From Anaerolineae bacterium (GTDB taxonomy: Bacteria; Chloroflexota; Anaerolineae; Promineifilales; Promineifilaceae): 64,000 bases of DNA. A program made the translations under genes and the position numbers. The notes below the pieces were generated by a model. That model made no database searches. It had not been told where the DNA came from and worked only from the letters and a program-made list of their open reading frames with translations. Of this stretch, positions 916 through 36,457 are shown piece by piece. The stretch covers positions 62,001-126,000 of the forward strand of contig JAMLHW010000004.1 in the NCBI GenBank assembly GCA_023954475.1, written 5' to 3'. The number at the start of each line of letters is the position of its first letter. Position 1 is the stretch's first letter.

Positions 916-1980
916 GTGTTAGGTTACGCAATTGCTTTTGCATTAACGTTGCTGCTATCGTTGGCGCTGACACCTTTGGCACGTAAACTTGCGTTCCGTC
1001 TCAATACTGTTCACTATCCCAAAGCAATATCTATCGACACACACGTAAATCCCATCCCCTATTTAGGTGGACTCCCCATCTTCACCGCTTTTATCGCCTC
1101 GACCACCTTAATCTATGGTTATTTGGGAGACCTGGTGATGGTCATACCTGCCCTCATCGCCATGACAATCGTCGCTATTGGTGGATTTATCGATGATGCC
1201 CATCCGTTGAGCGTGCTTGGCAAGTTTATCGCCCAAATTGTTGCAACGACCTTCATACTCGTAACCGGCCAGGATTTTCTCCAGATATTGCCCATTTTGG
1301 GTAGTACTGTTCCGGACACAATTCTCGCGTTTATTTTTCTCGTCGGCCTGATGAACGCGATCAATTTTCTGGACATCATGGACGGGTTGGCTGCCGGGGT
1401 TGTCGCCATCGCATCACTTGGATTTGCAGGTGTCGCCATCCTGCAAAACCAGCCCATCGTCGCTGTGATGGCGTTGGCGTTGGCCGGTAGTACCATTGGC
1501 TTTCTTTACTACAATTTTAATCCGGCCCGCATTTTCATGGGCGATACGGGCAGTCAGTTCATTGGCTTTACGCTTGCGCTGTTTCCTCCAATGTTACTCA
1601 AGCAGAATACGGCAGGATCAAACCAGGTACTGTTAGTTGCCAGTTTGATCATTCTCACCATTCCGCTTTTTGAGATGACCTATACGAGCACCATTCGCAT
1701 TCTCACCGGAAAACGACCCTGGAAAGGCAGCAAGGATCATTTTGCGCTGCGTGTCTTCGCAATGGGATATTCCGTGCGCAAAATTGTCTTAACAACCTAT
1801 GCGATTGGTATTGTGGTTGGTATCGCCGGCATTGTTGTAAGCAAATTGTCGATCGGTTTTGCGATTGGTGTTGCCATTGTTGTTTTGGCATGTTCGCTGG
1901 TTGTCGCACGTTGGTTGAGCCGTGTTCATGTTCCAAAACCTGCCGCAGGCAGTCAGAATCCGGTCAAGCCGACCTCATGA
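916..1980 (+). CDS. MraY/WecA-family phospho-sugar transferase
   Basis: A polytopic membrane enzyme of the polyprenyl-phosphate N-acetylhexosamine-1-phosphate transferase family, which moves a sugar phosphate from a UDP-sugar onto undecaprenyl phosphate to start glycan assembly. Family hallmarks are present: an Asp pair near residue 93 (IDDAHPL), NAINFLDIMDGLAAG near residue 147, GDTGSQFIGF near 208 and the cytoplasmic KGSKDHFALRV loop near 270. The 354 residues and alternating hydrophobic segments fit the usual 10-11 helix topology. The chosen start is GTG at 916 with GGAG at 905-908. It opens the glycan cluster and probably primes the polymer. WecA-like and MraY-like roles cannot be separated by eye, but the neighbourhood argues against peptidoglycan MraY. 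A second family member lies at 47792. Confidence 0.88.
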   Translation: MLGYAIAFALTLLLSLALTPLARKLAFRLNTVHYPKAISIDTHVNPIPYLGGLPIFTAFIASTTLIYGYLGDLVMVIPALIAMTIVAIGGFIDDAHPLSVLGKFIAQIVATTFILVTGQDFLQILPILGSTVPDTILAFIFLVGLMNAINFLDIMDGLAAGVVAIASLGFAGVAILQNQPIVAVMALALAGSTIGFLYYNFNPARIFMGDTGSQFIGFTLALFPPMLLKQNTAGSNQVLLVASLIILTIPLFEMTYTSTIRILTGKRPWKGSKDHFALRVFAMGYSVRKIVLTTYAIGIVVGIAGIVVSKLSIGFAIGVAIVVLACSLVVARWLSRVHVPKPAAGSQNPVKPTS

Positions 1981-2137
1981 TGGTGCGGTTGAAGCCGGCA
2001 GAGTTGAAACAGGTGCGTCCTGTAAAAACTGAGCTTGACTAATTACAGCATTGATGTTTAATCACATCATTCTGAGCATCAACAGCACAGTACCCATCGT
2101 TCAGATTAGTCAAAAGGTTATTTGAGGCAAATAGAGT

Positions 2138-3424
2138 ATGTATTCAGTCGACACATTAATTGTCGGAGCCGGTATCAGTGGGCTTTCTTTTGCCAACTTT
2201 ACAGAGCGTGACGACTACTTGATTGTAGAAGCAAATGCGGAAATTGGCGGGTATTGTCGTACAGTAAAGCAGGATGGATTTGTCTGGGATTATTCGGGTC
2301 ACTTTTTTCATTTCCGTCATCCGGAAATCGAGGCTTTTTTGCGTGCGCGTATGATCTCGGCCGATATTCGGCGTATCCAGCGTTCATCAAAAATCCTGTT
2401 CAAAGATACAATCATCGACTTTCCGTTTCAGAAAAACATTCACCAACTTCCACAAGACGATTTCATCGACTGCCTGTATGATTTGTACTTCCGCGAAGGC
2501 GGTGAACCAAAAAACTTTGAAGAAATGTTGTACGCCAAGTTTGGCCGTGGCATTTGCGAACGCTTCCTGATCCCGTACAACGAAAAACTGTACGCCTGTG
2601 ATCTGGCGGAACTCGACAAAGATGCGATGGGACGTTTTTTCCCGTATGCCGATATCGAAGACGTAATTCGCAACTTCAAACAAGCCGACAACAGGTCTTA
2701 TAACGCGACGTTCACCTATCCACGCGGCGGCGCGATTGAATATATCAACGCGCTGGCAGCCGGCGTCAACGACGGCGCAATTGCTTTGGAAGAACGTCTG
2801 GAACGTCTCGACATCGATAACCACATTGCATACACAAATCGGCGTCCCATTGCGTATGAGCGGCTGGTTTCTTCTGCCCCGTTTGACCGTCTACTGACAA
2901 TGACCAATCTAACCTATAATCCGGCCACTTTTACGTCAAACAAGGTATTGGTCTTTAATCTGGGATTCGACCGCAAAGGGCCGGAAGATGTTCACTGGGT
3001 TTATTTCCCAGAGCGCAAATATTGTTTTTATCGCGTTGGCTTTTACGACAACATTTTTGGAAGCGACCGCATGAGCCTGTATGTGGAAATCGGCTTTCCC
3101 ACCGCCGAAGCGGTGGACGTAGCAATGTGGCAGCGGCGTGTATTGACTGATTTGAAATCGGCCGGTATTGTGCAGGATCATCAGCTCGTGGCGCACCATT
3201 CTATCGTTCTCGATCCTGCCTATGTGCATATTACAAAGCAATCGATTGCAGAAACGTCCCGTCTGATGGCTGAATTGAATGCACATGACGTATACTCCAT
3301 CGGCCGATACGGTGGCTGGAAATATTGCTCGATTGAAGATAACATTATCGAAGCACGCACGTTGGTCGAAACAGTTGAAGGACACGCTGTCAGGTTGAAT
3401 TCGGCCGAATCCATTACTGATTAA
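2138..3424 (+). CDS. FAD-dependent amine-oxidase-like oxidoreductase
   Basis: 428 residues with an N-terminal Rossmann FAD-binding motif (IVGAGISGL, residues about 7-15), an acidic ribose-binding turn ([10 protein letters not shown]) and the family-typical [18 protein letters not shown] stretch. The arrangement resembles UDP-galactopyranose mutase and protoporphyrinogen-oxidase-like proteins found in polysaccharide clusters, including [14 protein letters not shown] in the substrate region. The natural substrate cannot be read from sequence. Its position between a priming transferase and export genes suggests sugar or lipid-carrier modification. ATG start; the 157-bp gap upstream suggests its own promoter or leader. 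The product looks cytoplasmic, with no signal peptide. Confidence 0.75.
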
Positions 3425-3460
3425 CCGTACAAATACAACAGGAATTGGGAGACTAAGTCG

Positions 3461-4762
3461 ATGCATCATTTGCCTAAACGATTCGCACATTACTTATTAT
3501 TACTCGCCCTACTTGTCATCGTTTCAGGCTGCGATTTGCTACCCCAGAGTGATGGCTCAGATACGGCAGCCGTTGATGAAACGACCCCGCAAGTAGATGC
3601 GCAGACAGATGAGCCTGAAGTAACAGTGACAGAAACCGCTGACGAACAAACCGAAACGCTCTTGTCGCCATTCCTGGCTAAAAATGTGACTATCTTCGGT
3701 GTGTACGAACCGACATTGACAACTGATCTCAGCTTTGTCCGCGATGGTCAGATTGACGAAGTCTATGTGCAAGAAGGTGACACCGTCACAGCCGGACAAC
3801 CACTGGCGCGGCTGCATTTGACAACAGCCAATCCCGGTGTCGCTGCTGCCGAGGCGGCTTTGAACACAGCCAAAGCACGCCTGGCGGAATTACAAGTTGG
3901 CCCATCTGAAGAAGAGATCGCTGCTTACGAAGCATTGCAAGCAGCTGCAGACGCCCAAATCACCGTTGCCAGAGCCAACTACAGTGTGGTTGCCGCTCCC
4001 GCTAATGACGCCGTTGTGCAGGCGGCCGAAGCACAGGTTGCAGCAGCAGAGTCAGAGCGTCGCGCTGCCGAAATCAATTACAACCGCCATTTGACCGAAG
4101 AGATTCTCGGTGATCCCGAAGAAATCGCGCGCTACCAACTGCGAGCGGCCGAAGCCAACTACAATGCTGCTCTGGCTGCACTCGACGCTGCTCAGGGCGG
4201 AGCCAGTTCGCAATCATTGTATGCTGCCGGCTCAGCCATTAATGAAGCTGAGGCGTTGGCTGCCAGCACAGCAGCACAACTGCAACTGGCTTTAGTCGAA
4301 GTTCCGGAAGAGACGATTGCCGTTCTCGAAGCAGAAATACGCGAGGCGGAAGTAGCGCTTGAAAACGCACTTGCCGAAGCCGCCTTCAACGAAGAGCAGG
4401 CTGTTATCACTGCGCCATTTGACGGAACGATTGTGTCAGTTAATGTAACCCCGCAACAGGCGGTCACGCAGGCAGATACTGCGTTTGTTCTGACTGATTT
4501 GAACTCAATGCGCGTACGTTCCAACGATCTCGATGAATTGTACATTGTTGCTGTTCAGCCGGGTCAAAAAGCCATTGTCACGTTTGAAGCGATGGGCGAT
4601 CATGAATACACGGGCGTCATCGAGTCGATTTCGCTGCGTCCTATTACCGGTGATGACATCAATGTGGGCACGAACTATTCGGTCGTTATTGCGCTTGACG
4701 ACCCAGACCCGGAATTGCGCTGGGGTATGTCATCGACAATTGAGATTCAGCTAAGAGATTGA
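3461..4762 (+). CDS. HlyD/RND-type membrane-fusion lipoprotein
   Basis: 433 residues with a lipoprotein signal peptide whose lipobox VSGC ends near residue 24, an acidic Thr-rich linker to about residue 65, a biotinyl-lipoyl-like half motif (DGQIDEVYVQEGDTVTAGQP), a long Ala/Glu-rich coiled-coil hairpin (about 120-300), the second lipoyl half (TAPFDGTIVSVNV) and a beta-barrel domain. This is the layout of periplasmic adaptor subunits of ABC, RND and MacAB exporters. No ATPase or permease is adjacent; the nearest candidate partners are the MacB-like genes at 22374-25864. It begins 36 bp after the oxidoreductase stop, so the two are probably co-transcribed. Confidence 0.85.
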   Translation: MHHLPKRFAHYLLLLALLVIVSGCDLLPQSDGSDTAAVDETTPQVDAQTDEPEVTVTETADEQTETLLSPFLAKNVTIFGVYEPTLTTDLSFVRDGQIDEVYVQEGDTVTAGQPLARLHLTTANPGVAAAEAALNTAKARLAELQVGPSEEEIAAYEALQAAADAQITVARANYSVVAAPANDAVVQAAEAQVAAAESERRAAEINYNRHLTEEILGDPEEIARYQLRAAEANYNAALAALDAAQGGASSQSLYAAGSAINEAEALAASTAAQLQLALVEVPEETIAVLEAEIREAEVALENALAEAAFNEEQAVITAPFDGTIVSVNVTPQQAVTQADTAFVLTDLNSMRVRSNDLDELYIVAVQPGQKAIVTFEAMGDHEYTGVIESISLRPITGDDINVGTNYSVVIALDDPDPELRWGMSSTIEIQLRD

Positions 4763-26397: not shown

Positions 26398-29300
26398 TTA
26401 CGCCTCCCTATATTCGAGATGGTACACGCCACCACCGCTACCGCCTGCGAATACAGTGAAATAGAGTCTATCGGCAGTCGATGATGCAGTGGGGACAATG
26501 CCAACCGCTAGCATCTGATCATCGAGTGTGATTGACGTCAGCAGCGTTCCCGTTTCCAGATTCCACACTTTCAGCGTGCTGTCATCCGAGGCGGACACGG
26601 CGCGCCGTCCGTCCTGGGTCACGGCCACCGCGCGGACCCAAGCCGCGTGACCCGACAGCGTGTGTTCTTCCGCCCCGTTTCCAGATTCCACAGGCGTGCG
26701 GTCATCCGAGGCGGACGCGCCGTATCCGTCCTGGGTCACGGCCACCGCGCGGGCCCAAGCCGCGTGACCCGACAGCGTGTGTTCTTCCGCCCCCGTTTCC
26801 AGATTCCACACTTTCAGCGTGCGGTCATCCGAGGCGGACACGGCGCGCCGTCCGTCCTGGGTCACGGCCACCGCGCTGACCCAAGCCGCGTGACCCGACA
26901 GCGTGTGTTCTTCCGCCCCCGTTTCCAGATTCCACACTTTCAGCGTGCGGTCATCCGAGGCGGACACGGCGCGCCGTCCGTCCTGGGTCACGGCCACCGC
27001 GCTGACCCAAGCCGCGTGACCCGACAGCGTGTGTTCTTCCGCCCCCGTTTCCAGATTCCACACTTTCAGCGTGCTGCATCCAGGCGGACACGGCACGCCG
27101 TCCGTCCTGGGTCACGGCCACCGCGCGGACACAGCCGCGTGACCCGACAGCGTGTTCTTCCGCCCCCGTTTCCAGTTCCACACTTTCGCGTGCGGTCATC
27201 CGAGGCGGACACGGCGCCCGTCCGTCACGGCCACCGCGCTGCCAAGCCGCGTGACCCGACAGCGTGTGCTTCCGCCCCGTTCCAGATTCCACACTTTCAG
27301 CGTGCGGTCATCCGAGGCGGACACGGCGCGCCGTCCGTCCTGGGTCACGGCCACCGCGGACCCAACCGCGTGACCCGACGGCGTGTGTTCTTCGCCCCCG
27401 TTTCAGATTCCACACTTTCAGCGTGCTGTCATCCGAGGCGGACACGGCGCGCCGTCCGTCCTGGGTCACGGCCAGCGCGGACCAAGCCGGTGACCCGGCA
27501 GCGTGTTCTTCGCCCGTTTCCAGATTCCACACTTTCAGCGTGCGGTCATCCGAGGCGGACACGGCGCGCCGTCCGTCCTGGGTCGGCACCGCGCGGACCA
27601 CAGCCGCGTGACCGACAGCGTGTTCTTCCGCCCCGTTTCCAGATTCCACACTTTCAGCGTGCTGTCATCCGAGGCGGACACGGCGCCGTCCATCCTGGTC
27701 ACGGCCACCGCGCGGACTTCAAGCCGCGTGACCCGACAGCGTTGTTCTTCCGCCCCCGTTTCCAGATTCCACACTTTCAGCGTGCGGTCATCGGGCGGAC
27801 ACGGCGCGCCGTCTGGGTCGGCCAGCGCTGACCAAGCCGTGACCGACAGCGTGTGTTCTTCCGCCCCCGTTTCCAGATTCCACATTTCAGCGTGCGGTCA
27901 GACGAGGCGGACACCGCGCCGTCCGTCCTGGAGTCACGGCCACCGCGCGGGCCCCAGCCGCGTGACCCGACAGCGTGTGTTCTTCCGCCCCCGTTTCCAG
28001 ATTCCACACTTTCAGCGTGCGGTCATCCGAGGCGGACACGGCGCGCCCGTCCGTCTGGGTCAGGCCACCGCGCGTGACCGCGTGACCCCGCAGCGTGTGT
28101 TCTTCCGCCCCCGTTTCCAGATTCCCACTTTCAGCGTGCGGTCATCCGAGGCGGACACGGCGCGCCGTCCGTCGGGTCACGGCCACCGCGCGGGCCCTGC
28201 CGCGTGACCCGACAGCTGTTCTTCCGCCCCCGTTTCCAGATTCCACACTTTCAGCGTGCGGTCATCCGAGGCGGACACGGCGCACCGTCCGTCCTGGGTC
28301 ACGGCCACCGCGCGGACCACAGCCGCGTGACCGGCAAGCGTGCGTTCCAGTGCTGGGCTTTCGCGTCGCCGACTCAGCAGCGTGCGCCAGCGTTCGCCCC
28401 GCAAATTGCCGCACAACCTCTCTGCCTGCTGCCGCAGCGGGTCAATGGCGCGATCAGCCACCCGGTATTGCATTTGCTGTGCAAAGCGCGTTGCTTTTCC
28501 AAGCAAGTCGCGTTGCAGCAGCGTGTGTATTTCCCGCTGCAACGTTCGCAGCAGCAAGCCTAGCTGGCGCGTCACTTCAGCCAGCCCGCTCATTTCCGGG
28601 CCAAATTCAGCAGTTTGCTGGAAGGTCACCAGGTCGAGCGCGGTCAGCAAATCCTCCTGCAATGCCAGCGCGCCCCGGTCGACGTATTGCCGCTGCATCT
28701 CCTCCAGCCCCCAATACGCGTCGCGCAGGTTACGCGCACAGTGCAACCGAAAGACGTGTCGTTGTGCCGACTCTACCCGCGCTTCGGCGAACTCCTGCAC
28801 CAGCGGGTGCAACCGGATCTGGCCCTCCGCCAACTGCTCCACCAGGCATGCATTGACCAGTGCCTGCACGCCCCGCGTCAACTTTTTGATCGATCGCCTG
28901 TCGCGCACGCCTGCCAACAAACCCAGACGCGCCACCGGGATCACCGCTGCCTCGTGTAATTGCCCGGCTACGGCAAACAGGTGTCGGGCTTTTGTCGTTT
29001 TCCAGCCCCCGCCATTGTGCTTCCAGTGCGGGCGTCAGGCTGGCAGCGTAGTAATCCTCCAGCGACAGTTCCGCTTCCTCAGCGTAGCGATCAGCGCCCA
29101 ACTCTTTCAAATCGGCCATGTAATCGGCAATCGACGCATCGGTGTCGCGCAGCGCCGCCGCCGCCAGATTGAGCGCCAGCGGCAACAAGCCGAGCATGTC
29201 TACGCGCATCAGTCCCGGATCATCGGCCATCGCCATGGCGTGTACCGCTCACAATCGCGCGTGCCGTCGGCAAGTCAACCGTCTTCAGGTTAAAATCCTC

Positions 29301-29809
29301 AATTCCAGTGGGAAAATCGCGTCGGCGTGTCGTCAACAGAAGCGTCCCGCCAAAGGTCAGCGGGTTTTTTCCCGCGCCCAGTTGTCGTTGGGCAAACAGG
29401 ACGGGATCATCGACATTGTCGTAAACGAACAGCGTTTGCCGGTTCGCGCTCCAGATAGTTGGTCAACGCAACCAGCGGTTGGTCATCAAAATCGGGTCGC
29501 TGCGGGTCTTCGACGGTCAAATGCAGAGTCGCGAGCCACCGCCAGCAACTGTGGGCGCAGGCGCTCCGCCGCGTTGAGCCATGCCACGCCGCCCGGGTAG
29601 GCGTCCCGGTAGCGGTAGACATATTCGACGGCCAACTGCGTCTTGCCGATACCGCCCATGCCGGACACTGCCGCCGCCGGGCGAATGCCGACCGCGTTTT
29701 CCTGCTGCAATTTTGCGTGCAGCGCCGCCAATTCGCGTTCGCGCCCTTTGAAGCGCTCATTTTGCAGAAAGTCGACGTAGAATAACGGCCGCTTCGACTC
29801 TTCAGACAC
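26398..29809 (-). pseudogene. NB-ARC/WD40 conflict-system protein, frame-broken
   Basis: Read leftwards, the pieces are: FYVDFLQNERFKGRERELAA and the P-loop GMGGIGKTQLA (about 29660); Walker B LFVYDNVDDP and LLLTTRRRDFP in another frame (about 29420-29320); MLGLLPLALNLAAAAL (winged-helix entry, about 29190); a helical linker with LVQEFAEARVESAQRHVF (about 28800); then 15 WD40 repeats ending in VYHLEYREA with stop at 26398. The order matches STAND NTPases that sense invaders through a repeat domain. At least a dozen frameshifts break it, nearly all deletions relative to a 126-bp repeat unit, while flanking genes are intact. Either a decayed gene or a poorly resolved assembly of near-identical repeats. 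Confidence 0.8.
26530..28345 (-). repeat. Fifteen near-identical WD40-coding repeats
   Basis: The unit is 126 bp (42 residues), with GHAAWVSAVAVTQDGRRAV followed by SASDDRTLKVWNLETG. Unit starts recur at spacings between 109 and 126 bp; where the spacing is 126 the reading frame is intact. The sequence identity is very high, which indicates recent expansion or gene conversion and also makes assembly difficult. Confidence 0.88.
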
Positions 29810-30234: not shown

Positions 30235-30447
30235 CGTCAGCACTATTCCCACAGGTCATCCGGCAAGTTGCTCATAATCTTACAACAAGTGGGGCAAATC
30301 GCCACGACAGAGGAAAGGTGACCGCGCCGTTGTGCGTCTTATCTATGTCCGGGTGCAACCGGTTTGCGTCCCGGACCGTGTTTTCGGCCGAAACACATTC
30401 CAGTCAACGAGCCGCACCATGCGGCCACACTTTCGGAGGATTATCTC

Positions 30448-30903
30448 ATGCAGTTCAAAGTCAAGGATCTCGCCATTGGCGTATCCGCCCACAAGCTTAT
30501 CGACCTCGACAAGCTCTGTCTGTTCCCCACGCGCCGCTGTCGCTACTTCATTACCACCATCCACTGTAAGCCGTGTACCTGGATTCCCTCAATCATCCAG
30601 TGCGATCCCTGCACCTTGTTGATCACCGAGATTCCGATTACAGACGGCCCCTGTGGTTTGGCCCATACCACCTGCCTCGACACATTGTTGTATGTGCTCG
30701 ACGTGCGTCAACTCGTCATCAACCCGGATGATCTCGGTCTGGTACGCGAGCAAATGGACAAATTCTTCAATGTCGTTACAGAACGTGGTGCCGAAGTCGC
30801 ACGGGCAATGGCCCCGCAGACACTCGAACAAGTCGATCTCGTCGAAAGCGAACTCAAAGCAGCACTGGAAGAAATTCAGGTGTTGCGCGACCGCTTGCAA
30901 TAA
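30448..30903 (+). CDS. Cys-rich small protein, candidate RiPP precursor
   Basis: 151 residues, not a family I can name. Residues 1-23 are a mixed leader (MQFKVKDLAIGVSAHKLIDL and on). Residues about 24-75 hold eight Cys with many Thr/Ser, including two CxPCT units about ten residues apart (HCKPCTWIPS, QCDPCTLLIT) and GPCGLAHTTC. The C-terminal 65 residues are helical and charged (ERGAEVARAMAP, ESELKAALEEIQVLRDRLQ), likely coiled coil. The strong ribosome site GGAGGA lies 7 bp before ATG 30448. It is followed by a lyase-like gene and a kinase-LanC fusion, so it is the natural substrate candidate. A metal-binding or disulfide-rich structural protein is the alternative. Confidence 0.7.
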   Translation: MQFKVKDLAIGVSAHKLIDLDKLCLFPTRRCRYFITTIHCKPCTWIPSIIQCDPCTLLITEIPITDGPCGLAHTTCLDTLLYVLDVRQLVINPDDLGLVREQMDKFFNVVTERGAEVARAMAPQTLEQVDLVESELKAALEEIQVLRDRLQ

Positions 30904-30971
30904 GTGCTTCTACCGTGGTGGGCGTGCTTTGCAACACGCCTGCCACCCCGCCCTACACCTCGGAGTACCCT

Positions 30972-32141
30972 GTGAACACACACCCCACACCGCACATACG
31001 AGCCAATCAGCAGTATCAACTCGTGCTCTACGACCGGCTCGATGCTGCTGTCCAGGCGGAATTGTCTGATCTTTCGGCCGAACCGGGTTTCTACGGCATA
31101 TTGGAACCCAACGACCCCGAATCCGGTTTGCCGGTCAAAGCAGTCGATACCGACACAGCGCTGCTGTTTTTGACGCTGCAACAGGCTGGCCCAGTACCGC
31201 ACTATGTCACCGTCAGTCTCGGCGCACGCAGCCGGCAGTCGATCGCCGATCTGGTTTTGAACGACGTTCTGGAAATCGCCACGCCGGACGGCTCGCACTG
31301 GGTCAGCGGCGTGCAGGCACATACCGTGTTGCAGCCGGGCAGAGCTACAGGCAGCGCGACAAACCACACGATTACACAACTGTCTGAGGCAGCGGTGCGC
31401 TACGGGCAACTGCTCGCCGCCGATCAACTCGCCGTCAATGAGTTGGCGCAGCGGCTGTACGCGTACAATGCGATTCCGATCTCGGCCGAATGGCGGCGCC
31501 AACTGCCGGACACGGACGCAGTCGAAGCGTTTCTCGGCATCGACGCGCGTGCCATGCAGCCCCAGTTTGACCGCGTCCAATCGGCCGAACCCAACGGCTG
31601 GCTCACGTTTCGCGCACACCACAATCGGCCGATGCGCCAACGACTGGGCTACAAACTCTACGTCAGTCCGCAGCCCCGTTACTTGCCCGCCATCTGGCCG
31701 CAACTCGTCGCCATATTTGCGCAACATGACGTACACGCCTTCAAAGTCGGCGGCACTGTGCAGGGATTGCTGCGCCCCGACAAACTCGTCGCCTATTTAC
31801 CGTCCTTAACAGCGCTCCACGCGCTTGCGGACACATTGCAAGCTGAATTGGCCCACGTACCGGCGCAAGGCGTGCCCTTCACCGCCCCCATCGATGCAGC
31901 CGGACTCCTCTCCTGGGGCATGGATCCGCCGAACGCGGCCAACGATGTCGTCTGGCACGGTCGCCAAAGCTGGCGACTATGGATCGCCGGTCAACTGGCT
32001 ACAGCCCTTGTCGCCGCGCAACACGCTGACATCGCCGTCGAGCCGTGGCGTTTTGCGCTGGACAAATTGACCCTGCTCGGCGTCGCTACAGCGACCTGGA
32101 CACCTGAACAAACTTTATGGCAGCAACACGGAGAACAGTAA
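30972..32141 (+). CDS. Phospho-Ser/Thr lyase-like protein (HopA1/LanKC-lyase-like)
   Basis: About 389 residues. The segment LGYKLYVSPQPRYLPAIWPQ, HAFKVGGTVQGLLRPDKLVA and YLPSLTALHALADTL resembles the lyase region of class III lanthipeptide synthetases and the HopA1/OspF-type fold: substrate strand, conserved Lys/His/Arg positions and the RPDK turn, then GVPFTAPIDAAGLLSWGMDPP. In such enzymes the lyase removes phosphate from phospho-Ser/Thr to give dehydro residues. The assignment rests on pattern resemblance, not alignment. GTG at 30972 has GGAG at 30962-30965; an earlier GTG at 30915 lacks a site. It ends 1 bp before the kinase-cyclase gene. Confidence 0.6.
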   Translation: MNTHPTPHIRANQQYQLVLYDRLDAAVQAELSDLSAEPGFYGILEPNDPESGLPVKAVDTDTALLFLTLQQAGPVPHYVTVSLGARSRQSIADLVLNDVLEIATPDGSHWVSGVQAHTVLQPGRATGSATNHTITQLSEAAVRYGQLLAADQLAVNELAQRLYAYNAIPISAEWRRQLPDTDAVEAFLGIDARAMQPQFDRVQSAEPNGWLTFRAHHNRPMRQRLGYKLYVSPQPRYLPAIWPQLVAIFAQHDVHAFKVGGTVQGLLRPDKLVAYLPSLTALHALADTLQAELAHVPAQGVPFTAPIDAAGLLSWGMDPPNAANDVVWHGRQSWRLWIAGQLATALVAAQHADIAVEPWRFALDKLTLLGVATATWTPEQTLWQQHGEQ

Positions 32142-32142
32142 C

Positions 32143-34512
32143 ATGGCATCCATCAGCGATCCACTCGTCAAAGCAAACGATGTAACGCTCATCCCCGTCC
32201 TCGATTTGCCGGAATCGATGCGCAAACAATTCGAGTACGAAGCAGGTGATTACGCCATTGCGCGCGATCAATCCCGTGCCAACGGCAAAATCATCAACGC
32301 CGATACAGCGGCGCTGATCAATGCGTTCTCACAGCCGGTTTCAATCGCCGAAGCTGTGATCCGGTTCAGTGCCGAGCGGCAAGTCGATCCGTATGAGACG
32401 TTGGAGCAGGCATTTCCATTGATTCAGCAATTTGTCAACAGCCGCATTCTGGTGCTCGAAAGCCAAAATGACGTTGCGGCTGAATCCCAACCGTTGCAGT
32501 ACGGGGACACAATCGGCCGATTTACCATCACGCATCTCGTGCAACAACTGGAAGACACCGCAATCTATCAAGCCACAGACGACGACGGGCACGTCGTGGC
32601 AATCAAACAACAAGCCGAACATACATCTGCCGCCGTCACGCGCCTGTTGCAACACGAAGCGACCATTTTGAACGCACTCGACGGCGTAACGACACCGGAA
32701 TTGATGGCGATCGATGTCGCCGACGACCGCGCCTTTCTGGCAATGGCGTGGTGTGACGGCGTCGATGCGCTCACCGCAGCCGGCGAATTGCGTGACGACC
32801 GGCCTCAATTGCTGCACCTGCTGCGCAGCGTCGTCGCTGCCTACGCCGATATCCACCGTCAGGGCATTGTTCACGGTGATGTGCATCCCGGCAATATCCT
32901 CATCGACGGCACGGGACAGACGCGCTTGATCGACTTCGGTCTGGCGCACAAAATCAGCGCCGGCGAAGCGCTACGTGCTGCCTATCGCGGTGGTGTCGCC
33001 TTCTACTTTGATCCGCAATATGCGCAGAGTGTGCGCGACCAAACGCCGCCGCCTTCGGCCGATTTTTACAGTGAACAGTACGCCGTCGCCGCCCTGCTCT
33101 ACGAAATGTGTACCGGCGCACACTATCTCAATTTCTCTCTGGAACACGCCGAATTGTACCGTCAGATTGTGGAAGAAACGCCGCTACCATTTGCCGCACA
33201 CGGTGTCGCCGCCTGGCCGGAGCTGGAACGCATTTTGTCGCGTGCATTGCGCAAAGAGCCGAGTGATCGCTTCGCGGATATGGCCGACATGCTCGCCGCG
33301 CTGGACGCCATCGACAACCCACCGACGACAAACAAGGTGCCTGAACTAACGCCTGAATCGGCCGAATTCATCGGTGAAGTGCTCGATACCTATCGACCCG
33401 ACGGCGATTTGTACCAACATGGGCTGCCTCGTGCGCCGCTGGCGTCGGTCAAATACGGTGCGGCTGGAATCGCCTATTTTCTCTACCGCGTCGCCTCGTC
33501 TCAAGGTGACCCGGAATTGCTGGCCCTTGCCGACCTCTGGGCAACCCGTGCCGCAGCGCTGACACAGCGCGATGATGCGTTTTTCAACGCCGAGATCGAC
33601 ATTTCGGCCGAAACGGTCGGCCACATCGCGCCACTGCATTCCGCCAGCGGCATCGCCGTCGTGCAGGCTCTGATCGCAGCCGCGATGGGCTACACCAACG
33701 GGGTTCTCGAAGCAACTGCCGCCTTTGTCTACTGTGCCAATCGCGATTGCGACAAACTCGACCTGACTTTAGGCAAGGCTAGTGTCATTCTCGGCGCGGC
33801 GCAACTCGTCCCGCTCCTCGAAAACCACGAATTGGCGGAAAAAACCGGCCTGATCATGCTCGGCGATAATTTGACGGCGCAGTTGTGGGCTGAAATCAAA
33901 CACTATCGGCCGATTGGTGTCGATTCTGAGCTGACCAATCTGGGTATTGCGCACGGCTGGGCGGGTATGCTTTACGCCATCATGCGTTGGTCACAGGCCA
34001 CCCAAACACCGCTGCCTGACGGCTTGCGTGACCGACTCGATCAACTCGCCGGGCTGGCACAACCAGCAGGGCGCGGCGTGCGTTGGCCGTGGCAGCTCGA
34101 CCAGCCGACCGGGCATATGCCGGGCTGGTGCAACGGCACGACCGGCTATGTCTATTTGTGGACGCTGGCCCATGCGCTGTTCGAGGATGCGCGCTATCTC
34201 GATTTGGCGCTCAAATCCGGTTGGCAAGCGTGGGAGGATGACGCCCAAATCGCCAATTTGTGCTGCGGCTTGGCCGGGCGTGCGTATGCGCTGCTGCACT
34301 TGTACAAGGTCACCGATGACGCACATTGGCTGAAAAAAGCGATGCATTCGGCCGAGATTGCCCGGCGCAATATCCGTCTCGCCCAACCGGATGAATATCG
34401 CGGATTTGAGCACAGCCTCTACAAAGGCGAAACCGGTGTCGCGCTGCTGCTTGCTGATCTGACACAACCCGACCAAGCTGTCTTCCCGTTCTTCGAAGCC
34501 GAGTTCAGCTAA
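32143..34512 (+). CDS. PqqD-like/protein kinase/LanC-like cyclase fusion
   Basis: 789 residues. Residues about 10-105 look like a PqqD/RRE-type recognition domain (DYAIARDQSRANGKIINADT, AALINAFSQPVSIAEAVIR). Residues about 120-395 form a Ser/Thr kinase: VAIK (K155), HGDVHPGN (about 245) and IDFGLAH (about 265). Residues 415-789 are LanC-like with double-helix repeats, HGWAG (H604), GWCNGTTG (C663) and LCCGLAG (C707, C708). The second zinc pair is Cys-Cys where LanC proteins usually have Cys-His. With a separate lyase upstream this recreates the lyase-kinase-cyclase set of class III/IV lanthipeptide synthetases in a split form. Ribosome site GGAG precedes the ATG. Cytoplasmic. Confidence 0.8.
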   Translation: MASISDPLVKANDVTLIPVLDLPESMRKQFEYEAGDYAIARDQSRANGKIINADTAALINAFSQPVSIAEAVIRFSAERQVDPYETLEQAFPLIQQFVNSRILVLESQNDVAAESQPLQYGDTIGRFTITHLVQQLEDTAIYQATDDDGHVVAIKQQAEHTSAAVTRLLQHEATILNALDGVTTPELMAIDVADDRAFLAMAWCDGVDALTAAGELRDDRPQLLHLLRSVVAAYADIHRQGIVHGDVHPGNILIDGTGQTRLIDFGLAHKISAGEALRAAYRGGVAFYFDPQYAQSVRDQTPPPSADFYSEQYAVAALLYEMCTGAHYLNFSLEHAELYRQIVEETPLPFAAHGVAAWPELERILSRALRKEPSDRFADMADMLAALDAIDNPPTTNKVPELTPESAEFIGEVLDTYRPDGDLYQHGLPRAPLASVKYGAAGIAYFLYRVASSQGDPELLALADLWATRAAALTQRDDAFFNAEIDISAETVGHIAPLHSASGIAVVQALIAAAMGYTNGVLEATAAFVYCANRDCDKLDLTLGKASVILGAAQLVPLLENHELAEKTGLIMLGDNLTAQLWAEIKHYRPIGVDSELTNLGIAHGWAGMLYAIMRWSQATQTPLPDGLRDRLDQLAGLAQPAGRGVRWPWQLDQPTGHMPGWCNGTTGYVYLWTLAHALFEDARYLDLALKSGWQAWEDDAQIANLCCGLAGRAYALLHLYKVTDDAHWLKKAMHSAEIARRNIRLAQPDEYRGFEHSLYKGETGVALLLADLTQPDQAVFPFFEAEFS

Positions 34513-34699: not shown

Positions 34700-36385
34700 A
34701 TGAAACAGAAACGCTTTTGGTCAATCCTCTTACTTTTTGCCGTGGTTGTAGTCACGGCTGGAACCATCGGCTTGAGTGGTCACGCTACTGCACAATCCGA
34801 CGATGCGGTCGCCCAGGCAGACGATGTCTTTGTCGCCCGCGTCTACTACGACACTATCGCTGATCTGGAAGCGTTGGCGACTTACGATATGTGGGAGTTC
34901 AACAATCTCCAGGAACAGTACGTGCTGGTCTCAATGGACGACGCTATCTACAACGAACTAACCAAAGCTGGTTGGCGCGTCGTCATCGACAGCGAAGCCA
35001 CGGCACAGCTTGCTCCGGAATTGGGCAACCGCACATTCTACGGCGGTTATCGCACCGTCGATGAACTGCACGCTGACATGGCGACTGTCAATGCAGCCCA
35101 CCCCGATCTGACCGAAATCGTCGACTACGGCGATAGCTACTGCAAAGCGCAAGGCGGCTGCACGACATTAGGTGGCGATAACCAACCCGGCTTTGACTTG
35201 AAAGCGATCCGCGTCACCAATGAGGCTATCGGCGGCGACAAACCGGTCTTTTTCCTCGTCGCGGGCATCCATTCACGCGAAATCACGACGCCCGAACTCG
35301 CGATGCGGATGCTCGACTGGTTGGTGGACGGTTACGGCGTCGATGCTGATGCGACATGGATCGTCGATCATCACGAAGTGTGGATCATTCCGTCACTCAA
35401 TCCAGACGGCCACTGGATTGTCGAACTGGGCACACAGCCGCCGTACAACGGCAACCCGTTCTACCAGCGCAAAAACGCCAACCGCAGCAACGGGTGCAAC
35501 ACGTGGCCGCCGACCTCCTTTACACAGTACGGGGTCGATCTCAACCGCAATCACAGCTTTGAATGGAATACAGGCGGCAGCAGTAGTGCACCATGTGACC
35601 AAACTTATCGAGGCCCGTCAGCCGCCTCAGAAAACGAAGTAGACCAGTTTGAAGACCTGGTGCGTGCACACATTCCCGACCAGCGTGGCCCCAATCCGAC
35701 AGACGCAGCACCGCGCAACACGACCGGCATCTTGATCACATTGCACAGCTACAGTGAATTGGTCTTGTGGCCATGGGGCAATGTAACGACGCCCGCGCCA
35801 AACAAGGCAGGCTTAAAGGCAATTGGCGACAAATTGGCAACGTACAATGGCTATACGTCGTGTCAACCTTCCCTGTGCCTCTACATTACGAGCGGGACGA
35901 CCGATGACTGGTCATACGGCGAATTGGGAATCCCATCCTATACGATTGAGGTGGGCACACAGTTCATGCCGCCCTATGGTCAAATAGACAGTATCCAATG
36001 GCCGGATAACGGACCTGCGCTGCAATACGCTGCAAAGATCGCGCGTACGCCTTACCGACTTGCGTTTGGTCCGGACGCGCTCGCTCCGACGGTGGTCGAC
36101 AATGGAAATGGGACGGTGACGCTGACGGCCGTGATCGATGATACGAACAACGGAAACAAGAATATCCGTCGCGCCGTATACTTTGTCGATAGTCCGTATT
36201 GGGATGGCGGCTCGGCGACGCTGATGGCGGCGCTTGACGGTGCTTATAACAGCCCAGTCGAGACAGCACAGGCGACGATTGACATCAGTGGCTGGAGTTC
36301 AGGGCGTCACATCGTCTTCGTTCACGGTATGGATCGCGGACGCAGCTTTGGCCCTGCCACGGCAGTTTTCATCGACGTTCCCTAA
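34700..36385 (+). CDS. Secreted M14 zinc carboxypeptidase
   Basis: 561 residues. A signal peptide (FWSILLLFAVVVVTAGTIGL, cleavage near HATAQS) precedes a propeptide-like region to about 110, then the M14 domain: HSREITTPE gives the His-x-x-Glu zinc ligands (about 194-197), LNPDGH and VDLNRNHSFEW the substrate-binding Arg/Asn, ITLHSYSELVLWPWG the third zinc His region and SYTIEVG the catalytic Glu (about 416). A C-terminal beta domain of about 110 residues follows. It is 187 bp after the kinase-cyclase gene and followed by a strong terminator, so probably a separate unit. It could trim an exported RiPP or simply scavenge peptides. Confidence 0.9.
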   Translation: MKQKRFWSILLLFAVVVVTAGTIGLSGHATAQSDDAVAQADDVFVARVYYDTIADLEALATYDMWEFNNLQEQYVLVSMDDAIYNELTKAGWRVVIDSEATAQLAPELGNRTFYGGYRTVDELHADMATVNAAHPDLTEIVDYGDSYCKAQGGCTTLGGDNQPGFDLKAIRVTNEAIGGDKPVFFLVAGIHSREITTPELAMRMLDWLVDGYGVDADATWIVDHHEVWIIPSLNPDGHWIVELGTQPPYNGNPFYQRKNANRSNGCNTWPPTSFTQYGVDLNRNHSFEWNTGGSSSAPCDQTYRGPSAASENEVDQFEDLVRAHIPDQRGPNPTDAAPRNTTGILITLHSYSELVLWPWGNVTTPAPNKAGLKAIGDKLATYNGYTSCQPSLCLYITSGTTDDWSYGELGIPSYTIEVGTQFMPPYGQIDSIQWPDNGPALQYAAKIARTPYRLAFGPDALAPTVVDNGNGTVTLTAVIDDTNNGNKNIRRAVYFVDSPYWDGGSATLMAALDGAYNSPVETAQATIDISGWSSGRHIVFVHGMDRGRSFGPATAVFIDVP

Positions 36386-36421: not shown

Positions 36422-36457
36422 GGAGACCGGCTTGTCGCAAGTCGGTCTCTTTTTTTG
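36422..36457 (+). terminator. Rho-independent terminator after the M14 peptidase
   Basis: Stem GAGACCGGCTTG / CAAGTCGGTCTC with a TCG loop and one G-T pair, followed directly by eight T. It lies 37 bp after the stop codon. Confidence 0.9.

Follow-up and report, generated by a model that had tools for sequence, protein, structure and literature searches.

A three-gene cassette of an Anaerolineae bacterium as a probable locus for a two-protein lanthipeptide synthetase

A 64,000-nucleotide stretch from an Anaerolineae bacterium of the Chloroflexota (contig JAMLHW010000004.1, positions 62,001 to 126,000), hereafter the window, carries on its plus strand, at 30448–34512, three tightly spaced genes that encode a Cys/Thr-rich small protein, a lyase and a protein in which a domain resembling a RiPP recognition element (RRE) is fused to a Hanks-type kinase and a LanC domain. 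With a probability of roughly 0.8, these genes form a cassette for the synthesis of a thioether-crosslinked peptide by a two-protein lanthipeptide synthetase. A sequence-only reading of the window had proposed a split lanthipeptide-type locus at this place. The open reading frames (ORFs) were confirmed at these coordinates, and the proposal is supported by the predicted fold and catalytic residues of the lyase, by a conserved precursor next to homologues and by a non-random pairing of Cys with Ser/Thr. It also seems reasonably probable that the cassette represents a distinct class of lanthipeptide synthetases, defined by an RRE-HopA1 lyase, an RRE-Hanks kinase-LanC(CCG) protein, leader-core-follower precursors and ladders of rings with Cys on the N-terminal side (i to i+4), some of them extending over long tandem repeats.

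The features of the cassette are the following (all on the plus strand, with the basis of each in brackets):

30435–30439, +: ribosome-binding site GGAGG of the precursor gene (sequence)
30448–30903, +: precursor protein of 151 amino acids, with N-terminal motif, Cys/Thr-rich core and charged tail (ATG at 30448; homologous precursor at 14 other loci)
30454–30477, +: N-terminal motif FKVKDLAI, residues 3–10, putative leader recognition sequence (alignments; it recurs in loci L036, L037 and L075–L077)
30517–30684, +: core with 8 Cys at residues 24, 31, 40, 43, 52, 55, 69 and 76 (spacing statistics)
30700–30900, +: conserved charged C-terminal tail, residues 85–151, ending ALEEIQVLRDRLQ, a possible follower (alignments)
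30915–32141, +: RRE-like domain and predicted HopA1/LanY-type phospho-Ser/Thr lyase, ORF of 408 amino acids (predicted fold, catalytic residues)
30990–31328, +: RRE-like N-terminal domain of the lyase, residues 26–138 (fold matches; profile match to the fusion N-terminus)
31356–32120, +: HopA1/LxmY-like lyase domain, residues 148–402 (Z 16.4 with HopA1, 15.8 with LxmY)
31653, 31743, 31773 and 31794, +: lyase residues K247, K277, R287 and Y294, respectively (conservation; CaoY spacing)
32143–34512, +: fusion of RRE-like domain, Hanks-type kinase and LanC (CCG), 789 amino acids (Pfam, NCBIfam, predicted structure)
32143–32457, +: PqqD/RRE-like N-terminal domain of the fusion, residues 1–105 (weak PqqD and ThcOx matches; order of secondary structures)
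32491–33327, +: Hanks-type Ser/Thr kinase domain with invariant K155, E172, D246, N251 and D264 (Pfam; Z 26.8 with PknB)
33415–34500, +: LanC cyclase domain with H604 and the zinc-site residues C663, C707 and C708, in WCNG and CCG (Pfam; alignment)

The precursor gene comes first, the lyase gene second and the fusion gene last, starting one nucleotide past the lyase stop codon. Residues of the lyase are numbered from the GTG at 30915; its true start is likely the GTG at 30972, because a GGAG lies upstream of it near 30964 and homology begins there.

The precursor and the spacing of its Cys and Ser/Thr residues

The lyase and fusion genes adjoin at 17 loci including the window, and at 15 of these (the window and 14 others) a Cys-rich precursor gene lies directly upstream. 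This conserved grouping of the genes with a precursor at other loci is more than chance. Alignments of the precursors reveal a common N-terminal motif, [F/x]-K-[V/I]-[K/R]-[D/N]-L-[M/G]-[I/V], and a charged C-terminal tail of 42–87 residues that ends in most members with ALEEV-x-x-x-[K/R]-x-x-L. The core sits between this motif and the long conserved tail, an arrangement that the sequence-only reading had not noticed, and is very variable in both sequence and length (17 to 171 residues under the definition used). In the window precursor, the 8 Cys are gathered within a stretch of 59 amino acids. The precursors of two Rhodocyclaceae metagenome-assembled genomes (L004 and L005) differ with a dN of 0.043 and a dS of 0.655 and retain every Cys; this low dN relative to dS indicates that the precursor is a constrained gene.

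Some cores are made of tandem repeats: a run of CYASGG(G) in L025, several copies of CTDCTTQQFSICGTSP in L027 and TATPVTC in L076. These precursors reach 263 amino acids, which is unusually long for those of ribosomally synthesized and post-translationally modified peptides (RiPPs). They are encoded at:

L027, 7756–8547: tandem-repeat precursor
L025, 10213–10740: tandem-repeat precursor
L076, 6001–6795: tandem-repeat precursor

The spacing of Cys and Ser/Thr was analysed on seven cores, one close relative and the obvious tandem-repeat cores being set aside. Pairs in which a Ser/Thr stands four residues downstream of a Cys number 36, where 12.5 would be expected (z 7.9), a count that no family-wise maximum reached in 1500 shuffles. 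The shuffles take the sequences to be independent, yet some are related by descent at the first ring. The excess survives the omission of any single sequence as well as the removal of the first 10 residues. Likewise, 61 of the 64 Cys have a Ser/Thr at +3 to +5 (30.1 expected, and never more than 45 in 5000 shuffles). On the usual side, with Ser/Thr before Cys, enrichment is not significant (33 versus 30.1 expected). All 8 Cys of the window core have such a downstream partner at +3 to +5, where 3.5 would be expected (p 0.001), and three precursors found afterwards behave in the same way (30 of 33 Cys versus 16.1 expected, p 0.0002; 20 pairs at +4 versus 6.6). The L004 core, CHFPTNA CVNFTLH CRLNTYH CPDRSLL CRNPT..., reads as a ladder of heptads. 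The simplest reading of these sequences is one thioether per Cys, linking it to a Ser/Thr mainly four residues downstream. The C-x3-[S/T] spacing therefore predicts (methyl)lanthionine rings with an N-terminal Cys, a direction that has been termed occasional in lanthipeptides (PMC11251773).

The lyase and the kinase-cyclase fusion

No Pfam or NCBIfam family matched the window lyase, and a PDB profile search from its sequence alone found no relevant chain; its recognition came by fold. The AlphaFold2 model (mean predicted local distance difference test score, pLDDT, 74) is nearest to HopA1 (Z 16.4) and to the class V lyase LxmY (Z 15.8), followed by the lyase domains of LanKC and LanL (Z about 11) and by OspF/SpvC (Z about 9). 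The predicted fold thus supports the assignment of the middle gene product to the HopA1/LanY type, and the unrelated fold that could have undone the initial proposal was not found. The spacing K277-10-R287-7-Y294 is that of K219-10-R229-7-Y236 in CaoY. K247 lies 30 residues before K277, as R187 of CaoY lies 32 residues before K219, and would correspond to this Arg and to K104 of SpvC, an equation made by order and spacing and not by superposed coordinates. In CaoY, mutagenesis showed that K219 and R187 are required and that R229 helps elimination (PMC9486802). Among 12 homologues of the window lyase, K247, K277 and R287 are invariant and Y294 is conserved in 11.

The fusion matches Pkinase (5.3e-18) and LANC_like (2.7e-27) in Pfam, as the sequence-only reading had anticipated for these two parts. 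It also matches the NCBIfam model of class IV LanL (NF038150) over residues 124–777 at 4.2e-49, with 167.6 bits, under the equivalog cut-off of 650. Its predicted model (pLDDT 80) resembles LanCL proteins (Z 35–37), CuvL (Z 33) and PknB (Z 26.8). The kinase residues K155, E172, D246, N251 and D264 and the LanC residues H604, C663, C707 and C708 are invariant in six homologues. The three-Cys zinc motif CCG, which the initial reading had not pointed out, occurs in all 13 fusion cyclase domains examined, together with WCNG, whereas LanL and standalone LanC proteins from Chloroflexota carry CHG. CCG is the three-Cys site of the ProcM type, which was proposed to contribute to promiscuity (PMC10783134, PMC11251773). 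The LanC domains of the fusions form one clade (support 100/100) apart from CHG-type LanC and LanL sequences. With this clade, the CCG motif and the conserved precursor, the outcome that would have counted against a lanthipeptide locus, a LanC part grouping with non-modifying eukaryote-like LanC proteins and no conserved precursor, did not materialise. Stand-alone CHG-type LanC-like proteins (L043–L051) are also found in several Chloroflexota genomes, the one in L051 lying inside an open frame of about 1000 amino acids.

Each enzyme probably begins with an RRE-like domain. The domain announced as PqqD-like at the N-terminus of the fusion is weakly detectable: PqqD matches the N-terminus in 2 of 10 homologues (best E 0.0095), the match to ThcOx is weak as well, and a PDB profile search from the sequence of this region gave no relevant chain. 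Its model shows a beta-beta-(alpha)-beta-alpha-alpha-alpha order that fits a PqqD-like winged helix. Over residues 22–138, the corresponding domain of the lyase, absent from the initial reading, matches the RREs of TigE (residues 4–92, Z 6.8), NisB (135–231, Z 6.4) and MccB (1–86, Z 5.3–5.6), values that may reflect a common arrangement and are not decisive alone. It also matches the fusion N-terminus by profile (probability 88, E 3.3e-6). Taken together, the RRE fold matches and this mutual profile match make it likely that the lyase and the fusion carry a pair of related RRE-like domains.

Distribution and surroundings of the cassette

The 17 loci belong to Chloroflexota, Acidobacteriota and Pseudomonadota. 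They are the window, L003 (= L007), L004, L005, L006, L008, L009, L025–L029, L036, L037 and L075–L077, the kinase-LanC gene being cut by the contig end in L008 and L077. A genome scan with the single window sequence retrieved nothing, and one of the GTDB species set with a two-sequence alignment retrieved six loci. Searches for the lyase also gave 2 hits in 400 Chloroflexota genomes and 5 genomes among 347 Acidobacteriota; further orders and classes were also searched, and none was found in viral contigs. The cassette is rare and scattered among at least three phyla, which suggests horizontal transfer. One genome, G690, holds two complete cassettes with different precursors, of 86 amino acids with 3 Cys (L026) and of 263 amino acids with 25 Cys (L027).

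In Acidobacteriota, the cassette often has a large PknB-like kinase beside it, in most cases one with PD40 or TPR parts:

L026, 3864–7790: PknB-like neighbour
L027, 385–4972: PknB-like neighbour
L028, 12072–15404: PknB-like neighbour
L029, 532–3531: PknB-like neighbour
L075, 1680–4289: PknB-like neighbour
L076, 3196–5913: PknB-like neighbour

A LanM is not a usual neighbour, since weak hits near L026–L029 turned out to be PknB-like kinases with PD40/TPR. Only L003 (Dictyobacter kobayashii) seems to have an apparent LanM-like gene, in two frames (1263–4579), about 3.4 kb upstream.

Around the cassette, the window contains:

26398–29809, −: WD40/AAA_16 (NB-ARC-like) gene with about 15 near-identical 126-bp repeats, broken into many frames
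34700–36385, +: secreted M14 carboxypeptidase, downstream of the cassette (Pfam 2.4e-50)
36422–36450: hairpin with a T run, beyond the M14 gene

The broken gene is either decaying or the product of an assembly or sequencing error within its repeats. The M14 carboxypeptidase had been put forward as a maturation enzyme. In the neighbourhoods of 15 relatives, neither this gene nor the two that follow it have a homologue; for this lack of conservation it is probably not part of the system and was rejected as a member.

Proposed pathway, rival explanations and known systems

From the order of the genes, the domains identified, the catalytic and zinc-site residues, the conservation of the precursor and the Cys-Ser/Thr spacing, all obtained computationally, we infer a pathway that can be pictured as follows. 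The RRE-like domains, one per enzyme, would bind the precursor at its FKVKDL-type N-terminal motif and possibly at its C-terminal tail. The kinase domain of the fusion would phosphorylate Ser/Thr of the core, from which the separate HopA1/LanY-type lyase would eliminate the phosphate, giving dehydroalanine or dehydrobutyrine. The LanC domain, with its three-Cys zinc site, would then add Cys thiols to these residues, each Cys (i) attacking a dehydro residue mainly at i+4, so that rings with an N-terminal Cys would be repeated as ladders along the core.

Several observations weigh against this reading. The tie of the lyase to HopA1 is one of predicted fold, a sequence match to PF17914 appearing in only one of seven members (E 0.0073); both RRE assignments are weak to moderate; in the two most divergent loci, L028 and L029, the upstream region lacks an evident Cys-rich precursor; and the neighbouring genes examined revealed neither cleavage sites nor a transporter or protease belonging to the system. 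In addition, the LanC domain finds its best PDB matches in eukaryotic LANCL proteins, which add glutathione and do not close rings. The cassette might accordingly dehydrate its targets without forming lanthionine rings, LanC adding another thiol or repairing dehydroamino acids and the Cys-rich protein being the target or a scaffold. LANCL1/2 are indeed the nearest solved LanC relatives by sequence and give Z 35–37 in the fold comparison, but the zinc site is CCG and not CHG, 15 of the 17 loci have a linked Cys-rich precursor, and Cys and Ser/Thr stand at fixed spacing within one chain, so that this explanation appears unlikely.

It is highly improbable that the genes form a phospho-signalling module, in which the kinase would modify host proteins, the lyase would irreversibly strip the phosphate in the manner of OspF and the small protein would be an adaptor. 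The PknB-like kinases with PD40 or TPR parts that adjoin several Acidobacteriota loci, and the most divergent members without an evident precursor, may speak in its favour, but it leaves the LanC domain, the RRE-like domains, the Cys-Ser/Thr spacing and the tandem-repeat cores unexplained. The cassette could also be a known class IV or V system with its lyase or kinase gene merely split or fused, since LanL is the top-scoring match of the kinase-LanC part (4.2e-49) and the lyase resembles LanY of class V. This is quite improbable, as the lyase is of the HopA1/LanY type and not a LanL lyase, the kinase of class V, LanK, is of the APH type and that of the cassette of the Hanks type, and neither the CCG site, which differs from that of LanL, nor the two RRE-like domains nor the leader-core-tail precursor is accounted for.

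If the two-protein synthetase is confirmed, it would add a further architecture to lanthipeptide synthetases and imply that HopA1-type lyases can be recombined with Hanks-type kinases and three-Cys cyclases, a point of interest for the evolution of the classes. The C-x3-[S/T] code would provide a testable rule for placing rings from sequence, with Cys on the less usual side, and the two related RRE-like domains together with a core held between leader and tail would offer a compact model of one precursor served by two enzymes. In its minimal form of three genes, the cassette should transfer easily into Escherichia coli.

The arrangement, unfamiliar to the initial reading as well, was not found in a search of the literature on class V, class VI and split or new lanthipeptide synthetases, most subscription journals lying outside this search; neither a kinase nor a lyase figures in the main texts of RRE-Finder and of a structure-based RRE paper. 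The nearest published hint is a 2024 survey that predicted an 'L-CCC' combination of a phospho-lyase type dehydratase and a CCC cyclase for 8 peptides (PMC11251773). The survey derived its lyase model from the lyase of VenL, not from one of the HopA1 type, and its main text does not mention Acidobacteria or Chloroflexi.

No described class fits the cassette: the kinase of class V is of the APH type, class IV combines a CHG site with an OspF-like lyase in the same chain, class III lacks the zinc site and class II has DUF4135. Class V LanK/LanY systems (CaoKY, LxmKY; PF17914) share with it a separate HopA1-type lyase, the matching catalytic spacing and the distribution of kinase and lyase on two chains. 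However, LanK is stand-alone, whereas the kinase of the cassette is fused to RRE-like and LanC domains; moreover, the cassette lyase has K247 where CaoY has R187 and an RRE-like domain of its own, and the precursor is different. Class IV LanL proteins (CuvL, VenL), the best NCBIfam match, likewise have a Hanks-type kinase followed by a zinc LanC in one chain, but they carry their lyase in that chain, while the cassette fusion opens with an RRE-like domain. Type IIa LanM enzymes of the ProcM kind share the CCG site but dehydrate via DUF4135, for which none of the three cassette proteins has a Pfam or NCBIfam match. Class III LanKC and class VI LanKCb combine kinase and cyclase-like domains in one chain as well. 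LanKC differs by its in-chain lyase and by a cyclase without zinc ligands, unlike the fusion with its WCNG and CCG motifs, and LanKCb, described from streptococci only, differs in arrangement from the split of the cassette. The cassette is best read as a new two-protein synthetase architecture, a mixture of a class V lyase, a class IV-like kinase-cyclase and a ProcM-type zinc site.
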